Shown: positions 3,743 to 30,361, numbered from the stretch's first letter. The stretch is DNA of 37,693 nt from Nitrosopumilales archaeon (GCA_016276965.1 JADNRU010000006.1:8850-46542), one strand, 5' to 3'. The notes: generated by a model not told the origin, from the letters alone. Numbers and translations are program-made.

Positions 3743-3802
3743 AAAATTAAGTTTAACCGTATGATTCGAATTTCACTTCAAAACTTCCGTCTTCACGTTT
3801 AT
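3743..3802. repeat. 60-bp block identical to 765-824
   Basis: Second copy of the block described at 765-824. It covers the 3' end of flavoreductase paralogue 2 and 10 bp past its stop, which here is intergenic sequence between two convergent genes. Confidence 0.9.
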
Positions 3803-4598
3803 TCTGTTGTGTGAGAAAGCCTTTTGGTTTTAAGAAGTCAAGAACTCCATCAATTGTTCCTTGCCAACCGCAGACATAAAACATTGTGTTTTCTTTGGTA
3901 ACTTTATCTCCTATTAGTTCCTCTAAGGGTGACTTTTCCCCTTCTTTAGGTCTCAAAAATGTCTCAACTCTTCCTAATTGTTCTCCCCAAGACCTGTTAA
4001 ACCATTCTTGTGGACGACTAATTGAAGCTCTGTATTTAAAGTTCCATTTGTCTTTTCCTCCATCAAGGCTTTCATATTCTAAACCTGTTAAGACGTCTCT
4101 GTAACTGAGCTCATCTACATAACTTGCACCATGAAGAACTAAAATTTCTCTTTTATCTCCAACATCATGAAGGTGTTGAGCAAAGCTAACAAATGGCGCA
4201 AGTCCTGTACCACCACCTATACATACAATTCTTCTTTTGTCTGGAGAACCATCGGGTAGTTTTTCATTTATAGAAAGAGCTGAACCGGCTGGTTTTATCC
4301 AACTAATCTCATCACCAACTTTTGCATTGAAGAGTAGTGTTGTTAAACGACCAGGAATAGGTTTTCGCACCCATCTGAGTAACAATTCTATATATTTTCT
4401 ATTTTCTGGTTGTGATGCAATTGAATACGCTCTTCTGACAATCTTGTTATCTTCAATTGGGTTTGGCATTCCAATTGTTATGAATTGACCGGCTTTGTAT
4501 TCTGGTACTTGGCCATCATTAGGAACTAATCGCATGATTAGAAGATCTTCTTTCATCAATTGGAGATAAGTAATAGTAGCTTTGTTATCTTCAACCAC
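3753..4598 (-). CDS. FNR-type ferredoxin/flavodoxin-NADP+ reductase-like flavoprotein, paralogue 2
   Basis: 281 aa, the same length as paralogue 1 at 775-1620. It shares RRAYSIAS (55-62), the nucleotide-binding GGGTGLAPF (128-136) and CGWQGTID (243-250). The start is a GTG at 4598, supported by alignment with the sister gene and by a TATA-like box 27 nt upstream. The two copies are in the same orientation about 3 kb apart, separated by a divergent gene pair, so they are not one operon. Differences cluster on surface-type positions; both keep all recognisable cofactor motifs, so both are probably active, perhaps with different carriers or expression. Confidence 0.85.
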   Translation of the reverse strand: MVEDNKATITYLQLMKEDLLIMRLVPNDGQVPEYKAGQFITIGMPNPIEDNKIVRRAYSIASQPENRKYIELLLRWVRKPIPGRLTTLLFNAKVGDEISWIKPAGSALSINEKLPDGSPDKRRIVCIGGGTGLAPFVSFAQHLHDVGDKREILVLHGASYVDELSYRDVLTGLEYESLDGGKDKWNFKYRASISRPQEWFNRSWGEQLGRVETFLRPKEGEKSPLEELIGDKVTKENTMFYVCGWQGTIDGVLDFLKPKGFLTQQNKREDGSFEVKFESYG

Positions 4599-16765: not shown

Positions 16766-18029
16766 GAATGGATTTAGAGTGAGCAAGCAGCTCATCAATT
16801 GAGATTTGTTTTTCTGTTCTGTCCTGCATGTTTCGTAAAACGACTTTGTTATCTGAAAATTCTTTAGAGCCAACAATTATTGCATATTTTGAGCAAGTAG
16901 CAGACTCGAATTGTTTTTTGAGTGTCCTTCCAACCAAATCAATTTCAATAGGGATTCCATTTGATCTTAGCTCAGATGCCAAGTTCGAAGCTTCCTCTTG
17001 CATTTCGTCTGTGGCATACAAAACAGAGATGGCTTGAACTCGTCTTGGAGGAATGACTTGTTGTTTGTCAAGTGAGAAAATGATTCTCTCTACTCCACCA
17101 GCAACTCCTGTTGCTCCTAAATCATTACGCCCAAATGCTTTTGGCAAGGTATCATATCTTCCTCCACCAACTAAGGCGCCAATATCAGAACTTGAATCAA
17201 AGGCCTCAAAGACAAAACCAGAATAATAGTCAAGCCCTCTAACTACACCAAAGTTAATTCTGATGTTTTTGATATCCCTCTCCTCTAAGGAAAAGTACAA
17301 TTCTTTTAGCTCTTCCCAATCTTTAAAGTCTGATACATCGAAGCTTTGTTCTATTTCATGCGGGGTTCCTTTAATTTCTGAAAATTGTAGAATTTTTTCG
17401 AGTTTTTCTTTGTCAATTCCCTTTTCTTGGTATTCTTTTAGAATATCGTCTTTTCTTTTCTTTTGGATTTTATCCATTGCACGAAAAGCTTCGCTGACAA
17501 GTTTTGGATCCTCTGATTGGAAAACATTGGTAATATAGGATTCTACAAGTTTTCTGTGTGAGATATCTATAGTAATATTTTCTAAATTGAGATTTTCAAA
17601 AAATCTTGATGTGAATTCTACAAGTTCTGCATCAGCTGCCAAGCTTGGCTTTCCAAAAATTTCAATATTCCATTGATGAAAAAACCTGTATCTGCCTTTT
17701 TGTGGTTCGTCATAACGGAATACTCCCCCAAATGAGGCCAATTTTGCTGGGAGTTTGAGGGATTTTTGTGAAGCTACATATCTTGTAAGCCCCATGGTAA
17801 AATCAAATCTTAGTCCAACTTCTCTGTCATGCTTGTCTTTGAAATAGTAAATATCGTCTTTGATAGCGGGTCCGCTTTTTGTCTCTAGTGTGGACAATAG
17901 CTCAATTGGAGAAGGGTCCATGAAGCGGTATCCAAAAAGCTTTGCAGTTTGAATAAATTTTTCTCGGATGTATTCAATTTTGAAAAGCTCATCATCATCA
18001 AAGTCCTTCATACCCCTTGGAAGATCCAA
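16758..18029 (-). CDS. hisS: Histidyl-tRNA synthetase
   Basis: 423 aa class II synthetase charging tRNA-His. The N-terminal LPRGMKDF leads to motif 2 (FGGVFRYDEPQKGRYRFFHQ), the histidine-specific GLDYYSGFVFE loop, GGGRYDTL, and motif 3 GATGVAGGVERI. The C-terminal anticodon-binding domain spans about 330-423. The start is TTG at 18029, placing the conserved LPRG at residues 3-6. No ATG lies close upstream. Confidence 0.95.
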   Translation of the reverse strand: MDLPRGMKDFDDDELFKIEYIREKFIQTAKLFGYRFMDPSPIELLSTLETKSGPAIKDDIYYFKDKHDREVGLRFDFTMGLTRYVASQKSLKLPAKLASFGGVFRYDEPQKGRYRFFHQWNIEIFGKPSLAADAELVEFTSRFFENLNLENITIDISHRKLVESYITNVFQSEDPKLVSEAFRAMDKIQKKRKDDILKEYQEKGIDKEKLEKILQFSEIKGTPHEIEQSFDVSDFKDWEELKELYFSLEERDIKNIRINFGVVRGLDYYSGFVFEAFDSSSDIGALVGGGRYDTLPKAFGRNDLGATGVAGGVERIIFSLDKQQVIPPRRVQAISVLYATDEMQEEASNLASELRSNGIPIEIDLVGRTLKKQFESATCSKYAIIVGSKEFSDNKVVLRNMQDRTEKQISIDELLAHSKSILS

Positions 18030-18147
18030 ATCACTGTGTGATTACGATCTTGTGATTTAGGCTTTACGATTATCTTAGAATTTCATTTTGTGAAAATTTA
18101 CTTTTGCTTTATGTAGGCTCGATTTATTTCCAAAAACATTGACCTAG

Positions 18148-18261
18148 ATGAATAGAGCTAGAATTTTTTTTGCTATTGCAATAACTGCTGTAGCAGTAGC
18201 AGTATATGCTACTGGGGAACAGGTTTGGTTTCTGATATGGCCCCAAAAAATGAGAAAGTGA
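18148..18261 (+). CDS. Tiny single-TM protein (37 aa), putative
   Basis: ATG at 18148, TGA at 18259-18261. A basic start MNRARIFF is followed by an Ala/Val-rich hydrophobic helix (about 6-22), then a short Trp-containing tail ending in KMRK. It could be a membrane microprotein or a secreted leader. It lies in the 316-bp gap between hisS and the next gene, which otherwise shows no feature. Support is only ORF integrity and the membrane-like pattern. Confidence 0.4.
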   Translation: MNRARIFFAIAITAVAVAVYATGEQVWFLIWPQKMRK

Positions 18262-18345
18262 CGCAAATGAGCTGACTCCTGAAATTCCTCAGTGTGCTTA
18301 TGATTTCTTCTATATCTTTTTTAATTATTCAATTATGCAAAATAC

Positions 18346-18723
18346 ATGACAAGAGTACGCACAATTACATTTTCTGTGAATAAAAAAACAGGTGATGTAT
18401 TTGATGCAATTTTGAATATTCCACCAAAAATGATGCCAGATGCTAAAAAAAATAATGATGGTTGGTGGTCGTTTACTACTCCTTGGGGTCCAGGTAAATT
18501 GAAATTTAATGAAAACAAACAGTTTGGAATACTAGATCATCAATTTGTAGAAGACGAAGCAAAATGGAATGTGCCAATGAGGGTGGTTTCTCATGGAGAA
18601 GAATCTGAAGTGATGATTACACTCATCAAACCTGATACCATCAGCGATCAGTTATTTGATGAACGCATGAATGAAATGGAAAAAATGATGCTAGATATGA
18701 AAAAAATCTTAGAGCAAAATTAG
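18346..18723 (+). CDS. SRPBCC/START-like small protein
   Basis: 125 aa. The N-terminal TRVRTITFSVNKKTGDVFDAI, then DGWWSFTTPWGPGKLKF and PMRVVSHGEESEVMITL, read like the polyketide-cyclase/START fold, a beta-helix grip that binds hydrophobic ligands. A C-terminal helix is rich in Met (NEMEKMMLDMKKI). No catalytic residues are recognisable. ATG at 18346 has a TATA-like T/A run about 25 nt upstream. The ligand is unknown. Confidence 0.65.
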   Translation: MTRVRTITFSVNKKTGDVFDAILNIPPKMMPDAKKNNDGWWSFTTPWGPGKLKFNENKQFGILDHQFVEDEAKWNVPMRVVSHGEESEVMITLIKPDTISDQLFDERMNEMEKMMLDMKKILEQN

Positions 18724-18725
18724 AA

Positions 18726-18733
18726 TTTTTTTT
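18726..18733 (+). terminator. T8 terminator
   Basis: A run of eight T begins three bases after the stop codon of the START-like gene. Confidence 0.4.
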
Positions 18734-18808
18734 GATACCATCATCTAAACCCCGTCCCTAAATGCAATGAAAGCAAAGTATATTTTTACTTTTAATCTAA
18801 ATTAAGAA

Positions 18809-18970
18809 ATGAATCTTGAAGTTGAAAATGAAATAAAGGCAGAGATTGAAAAAGTAATTACTAGTGAAGACAGCCCTGTAGGGATTGACGCAAAAAAAAC
18901 TCACATAATTATCATCAACAAGCTTGTTGAAATAGAAAAACGATTAGATAATCTTGAAAAAATGCACTAG
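18809..18970 (+). CDS. Small helical protein (53 aa), hypothetical
   Basis: ATG at 18809, TAG at 18968-18970. Two charged helices rich in Glu, Lys and Ile are separated by a SPVGIDAKKT turn, and the second (LVEIEKRLDNLEKM) has coiled-coil spacing, so it may dimerise. TATATTTTT about 26 nt upstream of the ATG supports leaderless transcription. No family is recognised. Confidence 0.5.
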   Translation: MNLEVENEIKAEIEKVITSEDSPVGIDAKKTHIIIINKLVEIEKRLDNLEKMH

Positions 18971-19257: not shown

Positions 19258-19524
19258 TCATCTAGCTCTTCTCAGAGCTGCGCTATAAGCTGCCTTTCTT
19301 TTTCCGGCAGATCTTGTAGCTATTCTCAGGGCTCTTTTTGCACTTCTTACTTTGTTTGTTGCTCTTTTTAGATCACTTTTTCTTTTGTTAGCAACAACTT
19401 GTGCTCTTCGTTTGGCTTTGCCGCCGCCAGAAGATCTTCGTGAACCGCCCCGTCTTCGAGAACTACCTCGTCTTCGAGAACTACCTCGTCTTCGAGAACC
19501 GCCTCGTCTTCTTCTTGATGCCAT
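19258..19524 (-). CDS. Very basic Arg/Lys/Ser repeat protein, histone-H1-tail-like
   Basis: 88 aa. Residues 3-33 consist of SRRRG(S/G) hexads, and residues 34-88 form an Ala/Lys/Arg-rich, probably helical tail (SDLKRATNKVRSAKRAL and similar). It contains almost no acidic residues, so it should bind DNA or RNA non-specifically, like H1 or HC1-type nucleoid proteins. The ATG at 19524 has an AT box about 28 nt upstream. The plus-strand frame over it is a Leu/Arg/Pro shadow of the repeats. A nucleoid role is inference; ribosome association is an alternative. Confidence 0.7.
   Translation of the reverse strand: MASRRRRGGSRRRGSSRRRGSSRRRGGSRRSSGGGKAKRRAQVVANKRKSDLKRATNKVRSAKRALRIATRSAGKRKAAYSAALRRAR
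19451..19504. repeat. 18-bp tandem repeat, three copies
   Basis: Two identical and one two-mismatch copy of an 18-bp unit lie within the basic protein gene, each encoding one SRRRGS-type hexad. The flanks are more diverged copies of the same unit. Confidence 0.85.
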
Positions 19525-20125: not shown

Positions 20126-20230
20126 ATGAGTCACCAATGCTATTATTGCGACCAAATTTTTGACTCTAAAGAAAAATTATATGATCATTTAGAAGTTCAC
20201 GCAGAACCTGAAAAAAAATCAAAATCTTAA
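20126..20230 (+). CDS. C2H2 zinc-finger microprotein (34 aa), IF-type
   Basis: ATG at 20126, TAA at 20228-20230. It is one canonical C2H2 finger: Cys5-x2-Cys8-x12-His21-x3-His25, with Ile-Phe two residues after the second Cys, followed by a short Lys-rich tail. The same CxxCxxIFx8H core occurs in the microproteins at 25703-25819 and 27045-27152. A single finger could bind nucleic acid weakly or mediate protein contact; the function is unknown. Confidence 0.65.
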   Translation: MSHQCYYCDQIFDSKEKLYDHLEVHAEPEKKSKS

Positions 20231-20297
20231 TTTCAGGCAGTGTTGGTCATATCTAACAAACACATTACTAAATGATATTTTGACGTAGTATACTGTT

Positions 20298-20450
20298 ATG
20301 CCTTTTGAGGTAAGGGTATTTTGCCACAAATGTCATAGAGAAGGAAAACTAGCTTTAAAGAGGCCTCTGACTAGAATAGAAGTGGAGAGATCATGCAAAT
20401 GTCTCCATTGTCAACAACCTGGAGCACTACAATTTCTCCGATCTGGTTAG
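20298..20450 (+). CDS. Cys-rich zinc-ribbon-like microprotein (50 aa)
   Basis: ATG at 20298, TAG at 20448-20450. A CHKC knuckle at 9-12 pairs with a second knuckle CKCLHC about 24 residues later, with His at two nearby places. The segment between is basic (KRPLTRIEVERS). It looks like a treble-clef or zinc-ribbon mini-domain. No known family. Confidence 0.5.
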   Translation: MPFEVRVFCHKCHREGKLALKRPLTRIEVERSCKCLHCQQPGALQFLRSG

Positions 20451-20462
20451 AGGCCTTTTCAG

Positions 20463-20470
20463 TTTTTTTT
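20463..20470 (+). terminator. T8 terminator
   Basis: A run of eight T, 13 nt after the stop of the Cys-rich microprotein gene. Confidence 0.35.
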
Positions 20471-20568
20471 GTGTGATTTTGAATGAGAATAAAGGAAAGA
20501 TAGAGTTTCATTTGAGAAACACGCCGCCTTTTATTGTAATTGTCGTAAATTACTAATGGAATTGAGAT

Positions 20569-20841
20569 ATGTTCAAGAAGAAAGATTCTTCTCAAGAATC
20601 TGTAATGATTGATGAAGCTAGATTAATTGAAGCTGAAGAAAATCAACCAGAAGCCGAAGAAGAATATGTTCCTGCAAAATATGTTGAAGAATTTATTACT
20701 AGACACCACTTGGATATGTTATGGGAGGAGTTTGTTTATGAAAAAAACCATCCCAAAATTCCTTTAAGTGCAACTGAAGTACTGGCAATGATAAATTTGT
20801 CACCTGAAGAACAAGAAAAAATTCTAAAAGATCATGAATAA
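20569..20841 (+). CDS. Acidic conserved hypothetical protein (90 aa)
   Basis: 90 aa. The N-terminal third is acidic and probably disordered (EAEENQPEAEEEY). It is followed by a compact helical part with FITRHHLDMLWEEFVYEKNHPKIP and a C-terminal LSATEVLAMINLSPEEQEKIL. There is no Cys and no catalytic motif. The pattern suggests an interaction module. I do not recognise the family. Confidence 0.6.
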   Translation: MFKKKDSSQESVMIDEARLIEAEENQPEAEEEYVPAKYVEEFITRHHLDMLWEEFVYEKNHPKIPLSATEVLAMINLSPEEQEKILKDHE

Positions 20842-21006
20842 TTTTAGAATGCAATTTTCAAAATAACCTTTTGAAATTATCTTAAACCTTTGTGGGACTG
20901 TAATCTTTTTTATGTAGTTTTTTTGGATATTAGTTCGAAGATTTAGATTGCCTACAAATGAATCTTGATTACCGTATTAATATCAGAAACACTTACTCAG
21001 AATCAC

Positions 21007-21423
21007 TTGAGTATTAGATATCTGGAACACGCAACTGATGCATTCATTGAGGTTAGAGGTTCTAATCTGCAGGAGGCCTTTATCAAAGCTGGTGAATCTG
21101 TAGTTGATACTACGCTTGAACGCTCCACAGTTTCAGAAAAAGAGCAAAGGACTCTCAAAGTTTCCGGTCGTAAGCTTCATCATATTTTGTTTAATTGGCT
21201 CGAAGAGGTTAACTTTCAGCTGGTTACGGAAGGATTTGCAATTGCTAGATTTGAGCTAGAATTGAGGAAAAATTCTGAATATAGTATTGAAGCTACAGCA
21301 TTTGGGGAGCCGATTGATTTGAAGAAGCATCACTTCAAGGTCGAAATCAAGGCGCCAACGTTTCACTTGATGGAGATAACAGAGAATGACGGGGTTTTAA
21401 TGCGGTTTTTGTTGGATTTGTAA
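21007..21423 (+). CDS. Archease (RtcB tRNA-ligase cofactor)
   Basis: 138 aa from TTG at 21007 (MSIRYLEHATDAF), which matches the family's start; a TTG at 20965 would add 14 residues. Conserved pieces are LEHATDAFIEV with the metal-site Asp, LQEAFIKAGESVVD, LHHILFNWLEEVNF, GEPIDLKKHHFKVEIKAPTFH and the C-terminal LLDL. Archease activates the RNA ligase RtcB in tRNA splicing and RNA repair. rtcB is not in the window. Confidence 0.9.
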   Translation: MSIRYLEHATDAFIEVRGSNLQEAFIKAGESVVDTTLERSTVSEKEQRTLKVSGRKLHHILFNWLEEVNFQLVTEGFAIARFELELRKNSEYSIEATAFGEPIDLKKHHFKVEIKAPTFHLMEITENDGVLMRFLLDL

Positions 21424-21540
21424 ATATGTAACTATGCAGAACTATGCAGTTTTTTCGTTAAGTATTCATTCTATATTAAAAAACCCGTAGTTTCAAATGA
21501 ATGCAAACTCTTCTTAAATAAAATAAATGTATAATATGTA

Positions 21541-21669
21541 TTGCAATTGGAAGTTGAAAAGGTCATTTGCTGGAACTGTCAAGATGAAATAGTTCAGTAT
21601 CATAATGAGCATTATCGGGGTAAAAGGGGAATTTGCCAAAATTGTGGAGCAGATTTTCCACTGGAATGA
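21541..21669 (+). CDS. Zinc-ribbon microprotein (42 aa)
   Basis: TTG at 21541, TGA at 21667-21669. Two knuckles, CWNC and CQNCG, about 20 residues apart with a His/Tyr/Arg-rich loop between them, form a four-Cys zinc ribbon. CTTAAATAAAA at 21513-21523 is about 24 nt upstream and supports a leaderless TTG start. The spacing resembles zinc-ribbon domains of transcription or RNA-processing factors, here standing alone. Confidence 0.55.
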   Translation: MQLEVEKVICWNCQDEIVQYHNEHYRGKRGICQNCGADFPLE

Positions 21670-21687
21670 AATTCCAATTTTATGAAA

Positions 21688-21858
21688 TCACTTAATTTTA
21701 ACATACAATTCTGGTTCAGATAGCATTATTGCATGCTTTTCACATACGTGTAAAATAGCTCTTGCAAAGGGTTTTCTAGTGTGGTTGTTTTCAAAATAAT
21801 AAATCATTATTGGTATTTTTGCTTCTCCATTGCAATACGGGAATAGACAAATCGTCAT
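21688..21858 (-). CDS. Cys/His microprotein (56 aa), zinc-binding candidate
   Basis: ATG at 21858, TGA at 21688-21690. Cys4-x4-Cys9 near the N-terminus, and Cys39 with His37 and His42 at the other end (HVCEKH), could form a zinc site around an aromatic strand (IPIMIYYFENNH). It closes with LSEPELYVKIK. The uninterrupted, protein-like frame and an AT box about 29 nt upstream favour a real gene. No known family. Confidence 0.55.
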   Translation of the reverse strand: MTICLFPYCNGEAKIPIMIYYFENNHTRKPFARAILHVCEKHAIMLSEPELYVKIK

Positions 21859-21998
21859 AAAATGATGTTTTGATGCTCAATGATAAAACGGATCTGCTAA
21901 GCTTTGTTTTGAGAAAAAAAAGGGCACACTTGTTAATCTAGTATGTGAAAAAAAGCCAACAAAAATAGATAGTTAGTACAAGCAGTATTATTTTTTCG

Positions 21999-22562
21999 TT
22001 GATTCGTTCATCAACTGTCGCAGTAATTGGTATTGCTGCATTTATTGCAGGGACATTTACTGCAAATCTAAATGACGTTTTTCCAGAGCTTGGACCAATA
22101 GAGCTTGAAAATATTTCGGAGAAAACAAAACATTCAAGGATTTTGAAAAATGATCAATCAGCTGAATTCCAGTGGGATATACCAGCATTTTTCAAAAAAT
22201 CAGACTCGAAGAGTTTAGCTCAGTTCAGTCCTCTCCCAACAGCACAAAAATCTAGTATTTTACCATTTTCTGGATATGAGTCAAGTTGGATAGAATTTGA
22301 AAAATTGGAGTCCAAGCTAAGCCAGGCTGAAAGTGAAGAAGAATATAATCAAATTATAAAACGAGGAGTTGCCTCTAGGTCCTATCTAAATTCTTGTGCT
22401 AACTTGTTTTCAGAAATGCAACTGACAATGGATAAGCTTCGTTCATCAAGTGTTGAGGCAGATCCATTTACAGATCCCGAAGTCATGAAAGTAATGGAGC
22501 TCTCCTACATATTTTACAACAAATCATTTTGCGTCTACACAAAAGAGCTGTGGTTAGACTAG
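21999..22562 (+). CDS. Membrane-anchored or secreted hypothetical protein
   Basis: 187 aa from TTG at 21999. A hydrophobic N-terminal segment (about 6-23, AVIGIAAFIAGTF) acts as an uncleaved anchor or signal peptide. The rest is hydrophilic, with a Glu-rich helix (FEKLESKLSQAESEEEY) and two Cys in the C-terminal half (SCANLF, SFCVYT) that could form a disulfide outside the cell. The family is not recognised. Confidence 0.6.
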   Translation: MIRSSTVAVIGIAAFIAGTFTANLNDVFPELGPIELENISEKTKHSRILKNDQSAEFQWDIPAFFKKSDSKSLAQFSPLPTAQKSSILPFSGYESSWIEFEKLESKLSQAESEEEYNQIIKRGVASRSYLNSCANLFSEMQLTMDKLRSSSVEADPFTDPEVMKVMELSYIFYNKSFCVYTKELWLD

Positions 22563-22633
22563 GAACCTTGAATTAAAAAAAAGATTTCAATGAATTTAGG
22601 ATCATGCCTTTGCTTATTTTTTTTATGTTACAG

Positions 22634-22756
22634 TTAGTCTCTTTTCTCCATTATTCCCTTTCCACATTTTGGACACGTCATTCCCATAGTACACGGTTCA
22701 TCAGAATTGACATACCCGCATGCATTGCATTTAAGATGGAAGGGAGGTGAGGCCAT
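22634..22756 (-). CDS. Zinc-ribbon microprotein (40 aa)
   Basis: ATG at 22756, TAA at 22634-22636. CNACGY and CPKCGKG form a rubredoxin-like or zinc-ribbon four-Cys site 19 residues apart, with an extra Cys in the connecting loop (DEPCTMG). The 3' end is KGIMEKRD. The minus-strand AT box at about 22772-22785 fits leaderless expression. A rubredoxin-like iron site is a possible alternative, as knuckles followed by Gly-Tyr/Gly-Lys occur there too. Confidence 0.6.
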   Translation of the reverse strand: MASPPFHLKCNACGYVNSDEPCTMGMTCPKCGKGIMEKRD

Positions 22757-22810
22757 TTGTTAATTATGAAATATCATAAAAATCTCACACATTAACTTTT
22801 TTATTCAAAA

Positions 22811-22939
22811 CTAAGCTAGTCTAAGCATTAGATAGCTTTCTTCATCATATTTTGAATATCCATACGCACATTCTAAAGAACAAAATTTACTATTCTGACT
22901 TTGGAATGTTTTTCCACATTTTTTGCATTGCAATTTCAA
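22811..22939 (-). CDS. CKxCGK-type zinc-finger microprotein (42 aa)
   Basis: TTG at 22939, TAG at 22811-22813. The core is C-K-x-C-G-K-x9-C-S-x2-C-x-Y, followed by an aromatic, charged tail. The microprotein at 25913-26029 has exactly the same spacing. The box GTATAAAAG read on the plus strand at 22962-22970 lies 27 nt upstream of the TTG, which supports this start. The four Cys probably bind one zinc; the MYM/TRASH-like CSxxC ending is suggestive but not proof. Confidence 0.6.
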   Translation of the reverse strand: MKLQCKKCGKTFQSQNSKFCSLECAYGYSKYDEESYLMLRLA

Positions 22940-22992
22940 GCATTCTTTTATTGTAAAATTAGTATAAAAGCAAAAAAATCAAACTAGCTCAG

Positions 22993-23379
22993 TTAGGATT
23001 GATTGAAGGCAACTAATACGCCTTTGTTTACCTTGTCAATTGTATCTAAAACACTGCCAATTTCATATGGTTTGTAAATTACTGCAGTTGCATTTAGCTC
23101 TTGTAATTTTTTTTCAGTATCTGCTGTAAGGTCAGCAGTTACCATTATTACTTTGGCATCAGGATCAATTTCTCTAATTTTTTCTAGTGCATATAGTCCA
23201 TCATATTCTGGCATTAACACATCTAATAGAACGATATCGGGGCGGGAATTTATGAAAAGTTCAACTGCGGCTTTTCCATTACGAGCCTTTCCTATTACCT
23301 CAATTCCGCCTTGATCTAAAAAATCATCAAATAATTCCAAAGTTCCACGGTCATCATCCACTATTATAACACTAGGCAT
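22993..23379 (-). CDS. Single-domain response regulator (CheY-like receiver)
   Basis: 128 aa from the ATG at 23379 (MPSVIIVDDD). An upstream frame extension to 23460 is not family-like. Receiver hallmarks are the acidic triad Asp8-Asp9-Asp10, phospho-acceptor Asp53 in LLDVLMP, Thr81 in VTAD and Lys103 in YKPY. There is no output domain, so it acts by protein contact or in a phosphorelay. No histidine kinase is nearby, so it is an orphan. Confidence 0.9.
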   Translation of the reverse strand: MPSVIIVDDDRGTLELFDDFLDQGGIEVIGKARNGKAAVELFINSRPDIVLLDVLMPEYDGLYALEKIREIDPDAKVIMVTADLTADTEKKLQELNATAVIYKPYEIGSVLDTIDKVNKGVLVAFNQS

Positions 23380-23546
23380 GACTGTTTTGAAAAAAAATCT
23401 GATAATACCTCTTGTGTGTCCGTAATAGACAGCACCTATATGGTAATAAAGTAATTTCAAAAATTTGTTTAATTTCCATTTGAAATTAAACAGCTTAGAC
23501 GATGAATATAGATAGATTTATTTTTTCGAATTGATTATTACAACTT

Positions 23547-23933
23547 ATGGCACAAGAAATTGATTTGGAGGGCAAACTTTGTAGCATGATGATGGAGGGA
23601 AATAAAAACATCAGATATGTCGCAATCTGTGATATAGACGGAAAAATACTTTGGAATAGTCATCGTAACGATGTAAACAATATTCTTACTTTGGAAGAAA
23701 CAAAATCTTCCCTCAAAAGGGCAATTAAAAGTTGGAAGGAACGTGATGAACTTGCTTCAAAGATTGGAAAAGGAAGATATGCCATCGTTGGATATGATAA
23801 AATAAAAAGAATCACAATTCCATTGAAAAACAATCACATGCTTTTTTTGACTGTACAAGCTGATAAACCTGAATACATGGGAGACCTTCTAAATATTATA
23901 AAGTGGGTAGAAGAGCATCCATCGCAAATATAA
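23547..23933 (+). CDS. Thaumarchaeal conserved protein, roadblock/profilin-like
   Basis: 128 aa. IRYVAICDIDGKILWNSHR (about 21-40), a central helix region, GRYAIVGYDKIKRITIPL and a strand MLFLTVQADKP look like the beta-strand pattern of the roadblock/longin or small sensory folds. A C-terminal helix ends in KWVEEHP. I recall a thaumarchaeal DUF6659-type family of this look but cannot verify it. TATA-like GATTTATTTTTT is 27 nt upstream. It is divergent from the orphan response regulator, so a signalling link is possible. Confidence 0.6.
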   Translation: MAQEIDLEGKLCSMMMEGNKNIRYVAICDIDGKILWNSHRNDVNNILTLEETKSSLKRAIKSWKERDELASKIGKGRYAIVGYDKIKRITIPLKNNHMLFLTVQADKPEYMGDLLNIIKWVEEHPSQI

Positions 23934-23979
23934 TCAAAAATTTTCTTTTTTTTCCAAAATGAACTTGTATTATAGGGAC

Positions 23980-23997
23980 GTACAAAGCTTTTTGTAC
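23980..23997 (+). promoter_or_regulatory. Inverted repeat GTACAAA-n4-TTTGTAC, possible operator
   Basis: Perfect 7-bp arms (23980-23986 and 23991-23997) with a 4-bp spacer end 25 nt before the ATG at 24023, covering the position where the TATA box of a leaderless gene would sit. A dimeric repressor site is a reasonable reading; a terminator hairpin of the upstream gene is the alternative. Confidence 0.4.
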
Positions 23998-24022
23998 AAT
24001 TTTTACAATTAATTGGATTGAT

Positions 24023-24250
24023 ATGGCTAGTCTATTCTCTATGAAGTCCCTAAAGTTTGCAGAAAAGGATTGGATTCAAATCTCACATGAACCAGTAATT
24101 TATGAAAGTATAGTTGATAATGCCCCAATCACAATTTATGATACCAATGGCATGCCACATAGAATGACTTTTCGTAAGGGTGGAAAATTGCATTTAGAAA
24201 AAATCGAAGAAAAGTTTAGATTTCATTGGGAGAGTTCAGATTTAAAATAA
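24023..24250 (+). CDS. Small hypothetical protein (75 aa)
   Basis: 75 aa, beta-rich (IYESIVDNAPITIYDTNG, then MTFRKGGKLHLEKIEEKFRFHW). No Cys, no signal, no recognised family. It sits alone between a possible operator and a T-rich terminator. ATG at 24023 is the first start. Confidence 0.55.
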   Translation: MASLFSMKSLKFAEKDWIQISHEPVIYESIVDNAPITIYDTNGMPHRMTFRKGGKLHLEKIEEKFRFHWESSDLK

Positions 24251-24267
24251 TTTTTTTCTTTTTTTTT
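24251..24267 (+). terminator. T-rich terminator
   Basis: Seven T, a C, then nine T follow immediately after the stop codon at 24250. Confidence 0.5.
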
Positions 24268-24276
24268 ATTTAAAAG

Positions 24277-25623
24277 CTAAATTCGTATTATTCCATTTTC
24301 AATAAGGTACTGTATCCCATTTACAAAATCTTGATCTGTAATTTGTTTTTTTGCCCACCAACCTGCATTATCCTTTACCCAATTTGGAACAGGTGTTGAA
24401 TCCAAGTGTGCCAAGCCAGAATAATGTGGGACCCCCATCAGTCCTTGATTTATCAAATATTGAATTCCATAAACAAATTCCGCATCATCAATTAATCCCT
24501 TTGACCACCAATCTGCATTGATACGTATCCATTCAGGAAAACGATAATCATTTGCTCTTACAGGAGGCACCTCGGAATTTGTGTCTAAGAAAGTTCCCTT
24601 AACTTCAATTGTTTTTGATTTGTACAAATATGGAATTGTTAGTGTTCTTTCATTATGGTTTGCTTTTTCATAGTATCGAATTTTTTTTCCATTCACTAAA
24701 ACTTCAAAATTTTCATCAACTCCAGAATCTGCCTTTGCATCAATTAGCGTTCTTGGTAGCTCAACTGTTAGGTGTCCCCCACTTTTGCCGTCAATTGAAA
24801 ACTGTAAGGCATTGGATTTATAGACTGGTTTGACGATGTAAAGTTCTCCAAATGTTTTAGAATATTTTAAACTAATTGCAGTACCAAAAATTTCAATAGA
24901 ATTTTTTCTTGGAATCAAATCACTTTGTGCATTAAATGAAATTGCCGTTTCGCCAATAGAGTCTGTTCCATGCAAAGCTCTAATCAGATAATTTCCGGGT
25001 TCTTTTAACAAGAAATAATCTGTATCAATAATGGCATCGAATCTCTTATCAGAGGCTAAAACATATTCATTTTTGAGTATAATGACCCCATTTGGATCTA
25101 TGATAGTTAAAATCACAGGAAAGTTAGGATTTCCATTGGCTACTTTTCCAGATATCCGAATTATCTCACCATTTTCATAAGTTTTTTTGTCTGTAGTTAC
25201 AAGAACATTAGAATTTGAGAAACTCTTTTTTGTATGGATTTTTGCAAAATGAATGAACCCTGCATTAATTGCATAAACAGAATCTCCTTCCTGCACAATG
25301 AGAGAATCTTCAGAATCAATTGCAGATGTTATAGAAATTTTTCCGATAAAAATACCAGAATTATTCTCAGTTTCAATCAAAGCTAGACTTATTCCGTCTT
25401 TAAACGAATCAGAACTAACTGTGATGTAAATAACATCTGGATAATTAGAATAGAGTTTTTTTGTTGTTTCTTGAAGTGTTATAGTGGCCGATTCTCCAAT
25501 ATTATACGAGCTTTTATCCCATAATGGAAGTCCGGGGGAAGCGTAAGCAGTAGACACTGTTACAAATCCTATGATAGTAACCATTATTCCAAGGGATATC
25601 AGGGATTTTCCTATCCACAACAC
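24277..25623 (-). CDS. Secreted protein with Ig-like domains and two C-terminal WW-type repeats
   Basis: 448 aa. N-terminal signal peptide (hydrophobic 8-28, cleavage after TAYA). Middle beta-sandwich segments include DKKTYENGEIIRISGKV and NPNFPVILTIIDPNG, the macroglobulin-like pattern common in archaeal surface proteins. Two C-terminal repeats (362-396 and 412-448) share PxW[IV]xxxAxWW and FVxGIQYLI, a module common in thaumarchaeal exported proteins. It ends ENGIIRI, without a membrane anchor. GTG at 25623 is used; ATG at 25584 would lose the basic n-region, although the AT box at 25634-25644 sits nearer than usual. Confidence 0.75.
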   Translation of the reverse strand: MLWIGKSLISLGIMVTIIGFVTVSTAYASPGLPLWDKSSYNIGESATITLQETTKKLYSNYPDVIYITVSSDSFKDGISLALIETENNSGIFIGKISITSAIDSEDSLIVQEGDSVYAINAGFIHFAKIHTKKSFSNSNVLVTTDKKTYENGEIIRISGKVANGNPNFPVILTIIDPNGVIILKNEYVLASDKRFDAIIDTDYFLLKEPGNYLIRALHGTDSIGETAISFNAQSDLIPRKNSIEIFGTAISLKYSKTFGELYIVKPVYKSNALQFSIDGKSGGHLTVELPRTLIDAKADSGVDENFEVLVNGKKIRYYEKANHNERTLTIPYLYKSKTIEVKGTFLDTNSEVPPVRANDYRFPEWIRINADWWSKGLIDDAEFVYGIQYLINQGLMGVPHYSGLAHLDSTPVPNWVKDNAGWWAKKQITDQDFVNGIQYLIENGIIRI

Positions 25624-25702
25624 GATATTGTAGTATTATAAAAATCACATAACCATTTGGCTGTCCATTTTCTACCTACAAAACAATAGATTTTTTTTTA
25701 AT

Positions 25703-25819
25703 TTATGCCTCTACCATTTCTAATTCTCTTGAGCTATGGCCCGTTATAGTTTTGTGAATGTTTACTGTGTTTTCTGATTTAAAAATCAAATTGCATCTAT
25801 AACATTTCCAAGACTTCAT
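25703..25819 (-). CDS. C2H2 zinc-finger microprotein (38 aa), IF-type
   Basis: ATG at 25819, TAA at 25703-25705. Cys6-x2-Cys9 with Ile-Phe two residues later and His22-x5-His28, giving the same CxxCxxIFx8H core as at 20126 and 27045 but with a longer His-His spacer. An acidic tail ends EMVEA. The function is unknown. Confidence 0.6.
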   Translation of the reverse strand: MKSWKCYRCNLIFKSENTVNIHKTITGHSSRELEMVEA

Positions 25820-25912
25820 TTCTTAATTACTATGTGATTAATCGATAAGAATTGGTTTACGTGCAAAATGCACATAACCCTAGTATTATAACCTCAAATT
25901 AATGGTAGATTG

Positions 25913-26029
25913 ATGGAAATTAAATGCAAGATTTGCGGTAAACAATGTGGTACAATTTATAAAAATTATTGTTCCTTTGATTGTCTTTATAATGCCATGC
26001 AGCAAATGGGCCCTCCCTTACATAATTAA
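25913..26029 (+). CDS. CKxCGK-type zinc-finger microprotein (38 aa)
   Basis: ATG at 25913, TAA at 26027-26029; the earlier ATG at 25902 is closed by a TGA after three codons. The core C-K-x-C-G-K-x9-C-S-x2-C-x-Y is identical in spacing to 22811-22939, with one extra Cys inside the loop. The AGTATTATAAC box centred 27 nt upstream supports the start. Confidence 0.6.
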   Translation: MEIKCKICGKQCGTIYKNYCSFDCLYNAMQQMGPPLHN

Positions 26030-26114
26030 TTCTAACTTCATTCAAATTCATTCTAATTCTTCTAAATTCTATTAATTTAGTAAATAACAGAATCAAAATG
26101 AATTACAAAAAATT

Positions 26115-26127
26115 TTAAAAATTTTCT
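26115..26127 (+). repeat. 13-bp direct repeat, left copy (also promoter-like)
   Basis: TTAAAAATTTTCT at 26115-26127 recurs at 26215-26227, exactly 100 bp apart, bracketing a GC-rich structured island. The left copy also reads as a TATA element about 25 nt before the first G-run of the island, so it may be the promoter of a small RNA. Confidence 0.5.
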
Positions 26128-26137
26128 GAAATTTAGA

Positions 26138-26214
26138 GGGGGAAACCCGAACACTGAGAGTATTAGGAGATAAGAATCCCCTACCTGGGCGTGCAGGATT
26201 TCCCCCACGCCTAG
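26138..26214 (+). ncRNA. Candidate structured small RNA with hairpin and possible pseudoknot
   Basis: A GC-rich island in a 309-bp AT-rich gap with no ORF. The 9-bp stem 26185-26193 with 26206-26214 (CTGGGCGTG/CACGCCTAG, one G-U) closes a 12-nt loop. The loop's TTTCCCC is complementary to the 5' GGGGAAA (full 8-bp match 26138-26145 with 26199-26206, minus the base shared with the stem), giving an H-type pseudoknot. An alternative pairing of AGGGG (26137-26141) with CCCCT (26178-26182) would exclude it. It does not look like tRNA, SRP RNA, RNase P or 5S. The orientation is assumed from the upstream TATA-like repeat. Confidence 0.4.
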
Positions 26215-26227
26215 TTAAAAATTTTCT
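26215..26227 (+). repeat. 13-bp direct repeat, right copy
   Basis: Second copy of TTAAAAATTTTCT, starting directly after the 9-bp stem of the candidate RNA. The remaining sequence to 26338 shows only a weak 5-bp hairpin (GTTCT/AGAAC near 26250) and no ORF. Confidence 0.5.
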
Positions 26228-26338
26228 ATATAATGGCTACGTAGAAATCGTTCTTCTTTTAGAACAGAATTAAAGGAATTTGATTTGATGTAAAGCATTT
26301 TCTGTTTTGTTTGGAAGTGCAGATTTAGTCTAGTTTTT

Positions 26339-26665
26339 TCAAATTTTTGCGGACTTTATTTCTAGAGCTTTTTCTAATTTTTTATTATATGCAATTAATG
26401 TGGTAAGCTCATACATTACAAGAGCATACTTGTTTGTCAACCAAGCATAGGCTGTAATAGAGTAATCAGGAATGCCTTTTCCTTCCTCAGCAATCATTCT
26501 AAGTTCTTCTTCCATTTTTTTTGAATAATGCACGCTTTCTTTTACCTCCTTTTTTAATTCCTCAAGAGTCAAATCTTCGTAAATTTTTAAAAATTCCCAG
26601 ATTTTTTTCTCTTCATCATCTAACAAGGCTTTTAGTTCCCGATAATTCCCCATATCAGAATTCAT
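26339..26665 (-). CDS. Helical hypothetical protein (108 aa)
   Basis: 108 aa, nearly all helix by composition (EKKIWEFLKIYEDLTLEELKKEV, then KKMEEELRMIAEEG, then TNKYALVMYELTTLIAYNKKLEKAL). It has coiled-coil-like spacing and no Cys or catalytic motif. ATG at 26665; a second ATG (MGNYREL) four codons later is possible. Not recognised. Confidence 0.6.
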   Translation of the reverse strand: MNSDMGNYRELKALLDDEEKKIWEFLKIYEDLTLEELKKEVKESVHYSKKMEEELRMIAEEGKGIPDYSITAYAWLTNKYALVMYELTTLIAYNKKLEKALEIKSAKI

Positions 26666-26738
26666 ATTTTTTCTGATTAAGTTAAGTGATCAGAATTAGC
26701 TAGTCTATTTTTTGAAAAAAAGTAGAATTATTCTAAAA

Positions 26739-26843
26739 TTATCTAAAAACCAGGGCCCATTTTATACCATTTTCTGGGAGATTTACAAATGATATTGTTT
26801 TTTGTGCATCTCCTTTTTGTATCTTGAATAGGTATTGTCTCAT
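26739..26843 (-). CDS. Small ORF (34 aa), putative
   Basis: ATG at 26843, TAA at 26739-26741, minus strand. The composition is protein-like with strands RQYLFKIQKG and TISFVNLPENGIKWALVF, perhaps a small beta hairpin. No motif. The rest of the gap 26666-27044 shows nothing I can name. Confidence 0.3.
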   Translation of the reverse strand: MRQYLFKIQKGDAQKTISFVNLPENGIKWALVFR

Positions 26844-27044
26844 AAAGTAATAATCGCAAATTTGTTACTTAAGGGACGCGAAGAATTTGTTAGGGTATGA
26901 AAATGGACAAAATCACCCTTTTATACAACGATACATGAAATCCTGAATTTTTGTTCCTAAATCCATAATTTTGAAAATTTGTTGCAATTTTATTACAAAC
27001 AATGGGTTATTTCCTATTTTTTCCTAAATTCCTGTGAATCGGTG

Positions 27045-27152
27045 ATGGGTAAAGTAACCAAATGTGAGATATGCAGTATGATTTTTGAAAATGAGATAAT
27101 TTTAGAAAGGCATCAAAAAAATATTCATGAAAACAAAGGAGATAATACATAA
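27045..27152 (+). CDS. C2H2 zinc-finger microprotein (35 aa), IF-type
   Basis: ATG at 27045 directly follows GGTG in GGTGATG. TAA at 27150-27152. Cys7-x2-Cys10-x12-His23-x4-His28 with Ile-Phe after the second Cys, the same core as 20126 and 25703. The stop overlaps the next ATG by one base (TAATG), so it is translationally coupled to the coiled-coil gene, which argues strongly that it is expressed. Confidence 0.7.
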   Translation: MGKVTKCEICSMIFENEIILERHQKNIHENKGDNT

Positions 27153-27966: not shown

Positions 27967-29748
27967 CTAGTAACCGTAAACAGGGTTTTGTACACGAATA
28001 ATTTCTACAATTTTGTTTAGTACCTGTAGCTCTTCTGAGCTTAGCTTGTGCTTGAATTTTTTCAGATATTGTTTTGCGTCGTCGGGTGGCGGTAGAGTAT
28101 AAAAAACATCTTCTTCTTTGATCTGTCTACCTACAGTAACATTTTTGACAGAGCAAGCTACTTCTTGACCAGTTTTTGCTGAATCAATACTTTTTCCTTT
28201 ATCTTGTAGCTGATGAATTGTACCAATTTTATTACCAGATTTGTTCATGAATGCAATTTTTTGACGAAGCTTCCCAACATCTACCCGAATTCCAAAAACA
28301 GCAGGATTATTGTTTCTGAAAATGTATCCTTTAAGAAATGTAAATTTACCAATTGGAGTTAGCTCTGAAAATATAGAGTTTTCCAAGTCTGCACTGTCTT
28401 CGTCAACCCATTGAGTGTAATTGTCCATTAAACTGTAAATGACTTTGTCATGGAATAACTTAATGTGATAATTTTCTGCTTCAGTCTGTGCTTCAGGAGA
28501 AATCTTTACATTAAATGCTAAAATAACTCCCAAGTGTCTGTCGTTTTCTTTTACTGCTTTTGCCTCCATTACATCACGGCGTGTAACAGGACCAATGTCT
28601 GCCATGGAAATTGGAATCTGTTGACGCCTTAGCATTTCAGTTAATGCCTCAAGCGAGCCAATAGTATCACATTTTAGAAGAACACCTTTTGTTTCAGTCT
28701 TGATAAAGACTGATTTCATCTCAGACTCTAATGATTTTTTTAGCTGTTCGGCTTTGGCCTCGTCTTCTGTTGCATAAACTGTACTTCCAGGCAACACACC
28801 TTCAAGTTCAGGAGAGGCAATCTTGATTCCGGCAGCTGCTTGCACTTCATTGACTGGTTTGAATTTATCTCTAGGATCTCTCATCTCATCTAGTGGTTTT
28901 GGTAACAGCAGTGCTTTGGGTTTTGTTACTACCACAGAATCTCTTTTTGCAACAATGATGTTTTGATCCTTTTTGAGTTGTCCATCAATCAAAATGATGT
29001 TTGCAGTAGGTCCAAGACCAACTTCATCGTTTACCTCAAGCACAATACCACGTGTTGGTTTTTCTTTTTGTTCTAATCTTTTAGTAAGGAATTGCTGTGC
29101 CAATCCAACTAATACAGCAAGAAGCTCAGGAATTCCAACACCAGTTCTTGCACTTAATGGAACAATTGAAACTTCTTTTGAAAAGTCCTTGACACGGTAA
29201 AATGCTTCGGAATGATATCCCAATACCGACAAAGCTGTCACAACGTTGTAAATCTGCTCATCAAGAGTTGTTTGCACAAATTGGTCCTGTTCTTTGATTG
29301 CTTGTGAAATGTAGGCTGTATCAGAGTTTTTCCAGCCAGAAACCATATCTGTCTTGTTCAAAGCAACTACAAAAGGAACTTTTCTACTCTCTAGAATCTT
29401 CAGACTTTCGTTTGTTTGTGGTTGAAAACCTCGATTGACATCTACAACCAAAATTGCAATGTCAGCAGCTGATCCTCCGCGTGCTCTCAAGTTAGTAAAT
29501 ATTTCGTGGCCTGGCGTATCAATTACTAGCAATCCAGGAATTGTGTGTTCTCCTTTACTGAGTTTTTCATAAAGATGGCCAGTCATTTTTTTGATGGTTT
29601 CAGTTGGTAAAAAACTGGCACCGATGTGTTGAGTGATTCCACCAGCTTCTCTTCCTTGAACTCCAGTTCCTCTAATCTTATCGAGAATTGATGTTTTACC
29701 TGAATCTACGTGACCCAAGACGGCCACAATTGGTTGTCTTATGCGCAA
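27967..29748 (-). CDS. infB: Translation initiation factor aIF5B (IF2-like GTPase)
   Basis: 593 aa, the archaeal length without the long bacterial N-terminus. G1 GHVDSGKTS (12-20), G2 in GGITQHIGA, G3 DTPGHE, G4 NKTD, then domain II, III and the C-terminal tRNA-binding domain. It joins ribosomal subunits during initiation. The start is TTG at 29748 (MRIRQPIVAVLGHVDSGK) with GAGTGAT just upstream overlapping the ndk stop. Last gene of the ribosomal operon. Confidence 0.95.
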   Translation of the reverse strand: MRIRQPIVAVLGHVDSGKTSILDKIRGTGVQGREAGGITQHIGASFLPTETIKKMTGHLYEKLSKGEHTIPGLLVIDTPGHEIFTNLRARGGSAADIAILVVDVNRGFQPQTNESLKILESRKVPFVVALNKTDMVSGWKNSDTAYISQAIKEQDQFVQTTLDEQIYNVVTALSVLGYHSEAFYRVKDFSKEVSIVPLSARTGVGIPELLAVLVGLAQQFLTKRLEQKEKPTRGIVLEVNDEVGLGPTANIILIDGQLKKDQNIIVAKRDSVVVTKPKALLLPKPLDEMRDPRDKFKPVNEVQAAAGIKIASPELEGVLPGSTVYATEDEAKAEQLKKSLESEMKSVFIKTETKGVLLKCDTIGSLEALTEMLRRQQIPISMADIGPVTRRDVMEAKAVKENDRHLGVILAFNVKISPEAQTEAENYHIKLFHDKVIYSLMDNYTQWVDEDSADLENSIFSELTPIGKFTFLKGYIFRNNNPAVFGIRVDVGKLRQKIAFMNKSGNKIGTIHQLQDKGKSIDSAKTGQEVACSVKNVTVGRQIKEEDVFYTLPPPDDAKQYLKKFKHKLSSEELQVLNKIVEIIRVQNPVYGY

Positions 29749-30157: not shown

Positions 30158-30361
30158 TTATTTCTTGACTCGGATTCCGCCCTTAACGTATTTTTTGGTC
30201 CACTTTAATTTTCTAGGATCACGTTTTAGCTCTCTCATGTTTTTACGGCATTTTGAAGAGCAAAACCACATAACAGTTCCATCATTTTTTGCAAGCATTG
30301 TTCCAGATCCTTTTGCCACAGGTCCATCACAAAAGCTACATGGTTTAACTAAAAGGCTCAT
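30158..30361 (-). CDS. rpl24e: Ribosomal protein L24e
   Basis: 67 aa. Four-Cys zinc site: PCSFCDG (Cys8, Cys11) and WFCSSKC (Cys34, Cys38), followed by the basic [20 protein letters not shown]-type tail. Large-subunit protein. ATG at 30361 is preceded by the strong ribosome binding site AGGTGAT. Confidence 0.95.

Follow-up and report, generated by a model that had tools for sequence, protein, structure and literature searches.

Cys/His microproteins clustered in a Nitrosopumilaceae genome: a probable species-specific mosaic with no conserved working unit

Introduction

Small zinc-finger proteins have been linked to function in haloarchaea, where 12 of 16 deletions of zinc-finger µ-proteins in Haloferax gave phenotypes (PMC6562870) and the protein Brz regulates bop (PMC2253796). 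A viral finger, AFV1p06, binds DNA and has an extra strand, and the 2013 paper on this protein reported no homologue in Thaumarchaeota (PMC3541406). Here, we analyze nine open reading frames (ORFs) for Cys/His microproteins that lie within about 7 kb of a 37,693-nucleotide stretch of DNA, referred to below as the window, from a metagenome-assembled genome (G000:C6:8850-46542; 1.17 Mb in 83 contigs, 85% complete) that its gene content and its named relatives place in the Nitrosopumilaceae. Few microbes on Earth are as abundant as ammonia-oxidizing archaea, yet they are difficult to manipulate, and their gene regulation is poorly known.

An initial annotation of the window had suggested that these ORFs could be a set of small regulators, metal stores or adaptors. 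The reading that we favor, with a probability of roughly two in three, is that they form a species-specific mosaic of accessory single-zinc-site adaptors or regulators and no conserved working unit. Members of zinc-microprotein families would have been duplicated and rearranged, and so gathered around an archease gene and before an IF2 gene in one species. For each gene, transcription probably starts at a separate TATA-box promoter and apparently gives a leaderless mRNA; each product would fold around a single metal ion, presumably zinc, and would act by itself, docking on a protein or a nucleic acid as a small adaptor or regulator.

Results

The nine ORFs

All nine ORFs are present where the initial annotation had placed them, with lengths of 34-56 amino acids (aa), and are named z1 to z9 by order of position:

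z1: 20126..20230, plus strand; 34-aa C2H2 single finger, CxxC-x12-HxxxH
z2: 20298..20450, plus strand; 50-aa C4-type protein, CxxC ... CxCxxC
z3: 21541..21669, plus strand; zinc ribbon, 42 aa from TTG, accessory paralogue of a core family
z4: 21688..21858, minus strand; 56 aa, Cx4C ... CxxH
z5: 22634..22756, minus strand; 40-aa zinc ribbon, CxxCG ... CPxCG, orphan
z6: 22811..22939, minus strand; 42-aa CxxCG ... FCSxxC finger with a treble-clef-like motif, TTG start
z7: 25703..25819, minus strand; C2H2 finger of 38 aa that includes a third beta strand, an accessory within its core family
z8: 25913..26029, plus strand; 38-aa CxxCGxxC ... YCSxxC finger, from an ATG within the listed 25910 ORF
z9: 27045..27152, plus strand; 35-aa C2H2 finger, from an ATG within the listed 26979 ORF

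The putative sites are thus of the C2H2 type in z1, z7 and z9 and of the C4 or a mixed type in the rest. Comparison with homologues makes the in-frame TTG at 21547 the likely start of z3, which gives 40 aa. None of the tested microproteins rises above a Pfam or NCBIfam cut-off, which the neighboring DUF1059 protein does pass. Against Pfam, z1 reaches 21.8 bits for a cut-off of 25.2 (PF00096) and 25.5 for a cut-off of 27 (PF13894, zf-C2H2_4), z7 and z9 score below z1 in the C2H2 families, and z4 and z8 match no family at all.

Homologues, ligands and selection

Homologues were counted in 151 genomes of Nitrosopumilaceae, 96 of them good genomes, from 22 genera. The z7 family occurs in 133 genomes (88%), including 90 of the good ones, and in 21 genera, and the z3 family in 114 genomes (75%), including 85 of the good ones, and in 18 genera; class-wide, both are nearly limited to Nitrosopumilaceae, with only four (z7) and one (z3) matching genomes outside. 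Relatives of z4 are found in 27 genomes, and three genomes of genus g3 carry z6 orthologues (E ~1e-15), beyond which z6 has a broader and diverse family. Clear homologues of z2 are confined to the same-genus genomes G012 and G031, near archease in both, and a search of syntenic loci yielded a single homologue of z1 (76% identity), near archease in G012. The best relative of z9, in G047, is 59% identical over 27 aa (E 1e-6), its other matches being mostly weak C2H2 hits, and z8 has weak similarity to z6 (E 0.006-0.018), as a distant relative. Paralogues elsewhere in the own genome exist for z3, z4 and z7. The z6 family also includes divergent pairs about 1.9 kb apart (L218 5183-7218 and L222 1790-3860, with matches in G081, G087 and G105), and an MsrA-like gene lies between the members in the two loci read.

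All four ligands of z7 are invariant in 19 aligned sequences, alongside conserved non-ligand residues such as WKCYRC. The four Cys of z3 are invariant in 11 sequences, which share 12 invariant columns and a conserved YKGKRG, and the window copy fits the core-family motif C.NC ... Y.G.R ... C..C ... FPL. In z4, C4, C9 and C39 are invariant and H42 is nearly so. The four Cys of the z6/z8 set are invariant as well, in part circularly, as that alignment was drawn from profile matches already containing them. Metallothionein-like peptides for the storage or buffering of metal, which the initial annotation had entertained, would also be small and Cys-rich; however, each protein here has about one four-ligand site, which makes storage unlikely, and the finger-like spacing, the conserved non-ligand residues just named and the defined beta-beta-alpha-beta fold predicted for z7 reduce this explanation to a very slim chance.

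In the comparison of nonsynonymous and synonymous substitutions with relatives (omega, or dN/dS) that the initial annotation had proposed, the medians are 0.14 for z3, 0.28 for z7, 0.43 for z6 and 0.47 for z4, all of them rough values from homologue pairs with dS <1.5, as many pairs are synonymous-saturated. Single comparisons give about 0.1 for z3 against close homologues, 0.17-0.25 for z6 against orthologues and 0.28 for z4 against G031, and one pair each gives about 0.2 for z1 and about 0.5 for z2. Substitutions in the tested families are mainly synonymous, and their metal ligands show little or no variation. Judged from these sequences, most of the nine are real genes.

Density and chance

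Dinucleotide-shuffled versions of the 7.1 kb contain a mean of 0.38 such ORFs (maximum 3 in 300), and those of its intergenic part a mean of 0.12 (maximum 2), compared with nine in the real sequence. This disparity already goes against the idea that AT-rich intergenic DNA has produced the nine by chance, as ORFs with Cys/His codons in them by accident. The TTG starts of z3 and z6, and z5 and z8 with no close homologue, are what that idea would lead one to expect, but z1, z3, z4, z6 and z7 have homologues in which the ligands are invariant, with omega far under 1, and conservation refutes it for at least z3, z4, z6 and z7; for the group as a whole we consider it exceedingly improbable.

Sampled stretches of G000 and its relatives put the density of such ORFs in Nitrosopumilaceae DNA at 0.87 per 10 kb in all, and at 5.65 when the 10 kb are counted in intergenic sequence. 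About 1.8 are expected here by intergenic length, and the Poisson probability of at least nine is 1.2e-4, or 2e-8 on total length, both before correction for a genome search and with a metal pattern that was set after the nine ORFs had been seen. Because these values are uncorrected for the choice of place and pattern, the strength of the grouping is moderate: it is probably real but not overwhelming. By such sampled stretches, family genomes hold about 50-105 any-pattern ORFs and 30-61 two-CxxC ORFs per Mb, compared to one and none, respectively, in 150 kb of Escherichia coli; about one-tenth of the loosely matched ORFs would be expected by chance, and almost none of the two-CxxC ones, for which shuffles give near zero. 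In the relative G085, eight zinc microproteins lie in 7 kb (L277 9904-19883) beside a TFB-like gene (18012-18941), and another stretch has five. The density that the initial annotation found striking is far above that of shuffled DNA, but less exceptional for this family.

The cluster among relatives

Two genes outside the set, whose names were recognized from sequence, serve as synteny anchors, and a zinc ribbon of a different kind recurs between them in other genera:

Archease-like gene: 20965..21423, plus strand; in 132 of the 151 genomes
IF2/aIF5B-like GTPase gene: 27967..29748, minus strand; throughout the 151 genomes
Zinc ribbon of ~48 aa: archease-IF2 interval of L033, L034, L037 and L245-L264

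In most genomes with both anchors on one contig, the two remain neighbors, separated by 0.2 to 16 kb. The number of zinc microproteins between or just before them ranges from 0 to 3 among relatives (mostly 0 or 1), and these are usually different ones. The same-genus loci have two each, namely homologues of z1 and z2 in G012, and a homologue of z2 together with another microprotein in G031, at changed positions; where readable, seven of the nine are absent from the matching locus in both genomes. Homologues of z4, of the protein at 23547-23933 and of the Arg-rich protein at 19258-19524 stand together on another contig of G031, and in three g12 genomes a copy of the z3 family is located no more than about 2.5 kb from archease, on its other side. 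A scan of genome contigs for IF2 gave seven loci, in which none of the nine had a homologue at the cut-off applied. The cluster is not conserved, and with homologues dispersed and the locus variable among relatives, the window looks like a mosaic.

The ~48-aa zinc ribbon (MGKLSRNLRICGDCG...; MGKLSRNLRICGDCGIAYTSVSFTKYIDQCPICKSRRFEA) is conserved in the archease-IF2 interval of many other genera and absent from the window.

One functional module, meaning a set co-regulated for a common process such as translation via IF2 and archease, could account for the density of the group (P 1.2e-4 by intergenic length) and for the company kept by z4, which is near a response-regulator gene both in G039 and here and near the homologue of the 23547-23933 protein in G031. 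We nevertheless consider it improbable, given that the genes lie on both strands with separate conserved promoter-like boxes, that their zinc-site types differ and their distributions are separate, and that only two of the nine are common to the same-genus locus, with few or none in remoter relatives. A tie to translation through the nearby IF2 and archease genes was considered and dropped, as both stay in relatives while the microproteins change. Nothing links the microproteins to the ribosome, so the adaptors for it that the initial annotation had envisaged found no support.

Promoters

The AT boxes that the initial annotation had pointed out upstream of many of the nine are individually not significant in this AT-rich genome, and a promoter matrix derived from the upstream regions of long ORFs was set aside, since the nine starts were not separable from background. 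What does hold is conservation across homologues of z7, z3 and z4, where a TATA-like element precedes the start by ~24-31 nucleotides: an AT-only core at -28 to -26 within a TTATA-like box in 30 of 30 z7 loci, a TTTAAATA-like box near -30 for z3 and a TTTTAGGCTCAA-like box near -31 for z4, in loci that are mutually related and thus not independent samples. Shine-Dalgarno-like motifs are found in none of the 30 z7 loci, three of 17 z3 loci and none of 21 z4 loci. The conserved boxes and the general absence of these motifs suggest separately promoted, leaderless genes.

The fold of z7

The AlphaFold2 model of z7 has a mean predicted local distance difference test score (pLDDT) of 92.9 and a beta-beta-alpha-beta arrangement, with strands at residues 2-6, 11-13 and 33-37 and a helix at 16-26. 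Its best match in the PDB, found with Foldseek, is AFV1p06 (2LVH), with template modeling scores of 0.78/0.68, a root-mean-square deviation of 1.6 and 17% identity, but a weak E value of 0.39; a z7 profile gave no significant sequence match to 2LVH (E 0.075). On this model, the best description of z7 would be a C2H2 finger of AFV1p06-like build, extended by one beta strand. In about one-third to one-half of loci, core z7 is near genes for a membrane protein, an HD hydrolase and an Ssb-like protein with an oligonucleotide/oligosaccharide-binding (OB) fold. For z4, a single-sequence AlphaFold2 model reached a pLDDT of 50.5 and was not used.

A viral top match, the species-specific composition of the cluster and the C2H2 microproteins that archaeal viruses are known to carry raise the question of whether the nine are cargo of a mobile element or a decayed provirus. 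Scans of IMG/VR with the z7 and z3 alignments confirmed no relative, however, a phage collection had none for z7, no transposase or integrase was recognized by eye among the window ORFs, and the z3 and z7 families are near-universal in Nitrosopumilaceae genomes, so we give this origin little credence.

z3 and the class III cyclase

In the loci mapped in detail, the core z3 gene is situated about 10 nucleotides upstream of a class III cyclase gene (PF00211) on the same strand. The cyclase is beside core z3 in 18 of 20 loci, which are the best-scoring matches and not a random sample, and the order is kept in the divergent genomes G023 and G049. L199 1501-2437, L202 and L213 are among the loci with this gene order. 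The own genome has this arrangement at G000:C9:8837 (L228 8828-8965), whereas no cyclase adjoins the window copy, which would be a second copy of the ribbon whose core relative precedes the cyclase. From its gene order, core z3 may be a partner of the class III cyclase.

Other features of the window

Several further features were observed, listed with coordinates and strand:

775-1620 and 3753-4598, both minus: two similar 281-aa oxidoreductase-like ORFs, ~2 kb apart, ferredoxin-NADP reductase-like by eye
19258-19524, minus: basic protein rich in Arg and Ser, with GSRRRGSSRRRG-type repeats in tandem; one relative lies near the z4 homologue in G031
24277-25623, minus: protein of 448 aa whose C-terminal part has two repeats (WIRINADWWSKG..., WVKDNAGWWAKK...); matching DNA is found again at several further sites of the own genome
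26136-26218, plus: candidate structured RNA
30158-30361, minus: 67-aa C4 protein resembling ribosomal protein eL24, kept beside IF2 in G012 and G031

The candidate RNA has the arms GGGGGAAAYCC and GGATTTCCCCC around a conserved core, CACTGAGAGT ... TGGGCGTGCAGG, and no credible match in Rfam. G031 has a further copy at the same locus (L019 9974-10060), and the own genome has another at a different place (L067 8776-8857). These three built the model, and a weak fourth copy in G012 (L083 11294-11360) is the only independent one.

Discussion

By analogy with described µ-proteins, a role as regulator or adaptor is the most plausible for the individual microproteins, and to this extent the initial annotation stands. 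Its notion of a functional set found no support, because both strands carry members, seven of the nine have no counterpart at the same-genus loci and homologues are scattered genome-wide.

Some points weigh against the mosaic of zinc-binding adaptors or regulators. z5 has no homologue among the 151 genomes, z8 has no close homologue through the joint z6/z8 profile with which it was searched, the omega values are rough and the structural E value of z7 is weak. By eye, at least 18 of 19 aligned z7 sequences have a hydrophobic residue (I, L, M or V) just ahead of the first His, the place of the contact known classically as position 6. This speaks against ordinary base-reading, and on account of this residue a protein-docking role for z7 seems at least as likely as a nucleic-acid role. 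Metal occupancy is not assured either, as only nine of 14 haloarchaeal C(P)XCG proteins tested bound zinc (PMC11241148).

More tentatively, and as a possibility that we think rather unlikely, Nitrosopumilaceae could possess a large regulatory layer of stand-alone zinc microproteins, including the near-universal, family-specific C2H2 protein z7 and a widespread, cyclase-controlling z3 subunit, and the window would show one species drawing copies made by duplication into a regulatory island. The z7 and z3 families are specific, conserved tiny genes under the curated Pfam and NCBIfam cut-offs that have now been named, and the 40-aa zinc ribbon with its class III cyclase offers a concrete candidate partnership. 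The window also teaches that genes which are scattered elsewhere can pile up locally into a cluster that looks striking.

Among class III adenylate/guanylate cyclases (PF00211), core z3, unlike the window z3, is directly upstream in nearly every locus viewed, and no known cyclase subunit resembling z3 was identified. AFV1p06 (ORF59a of Acidianus filamentous virus 1) shares with the z7 model a third strand that follows the helix of the finger; however, its ligands are C2HE whereas those of z7 are C2H2, and z7 is a cellular protein of 38 aa with a hydrophobic position 6. The zinc-finger µ-proteins of Haloferax volcanii and Halobacterium (Brz) resemble those of the window in being stand-alone proteins of <70 aa with a single putative zinc site, a length limit under which all nine fall. 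The C(P)XCG-type motif is present in z5, nearly so in z2, z3, z6 and z8, and absent from z1, z7 and z9 (C2H2) and z4 (mixed), so that three of the nine are C2H2 and not C4, and the families described here lie under the Pfam and NCBIfam cut-offs. Nevertheless, both groups number dozens per genome, and the CxxC(G) spacing of z5, z3 and z6 is very close to that of their haloarchaeal counterparts.

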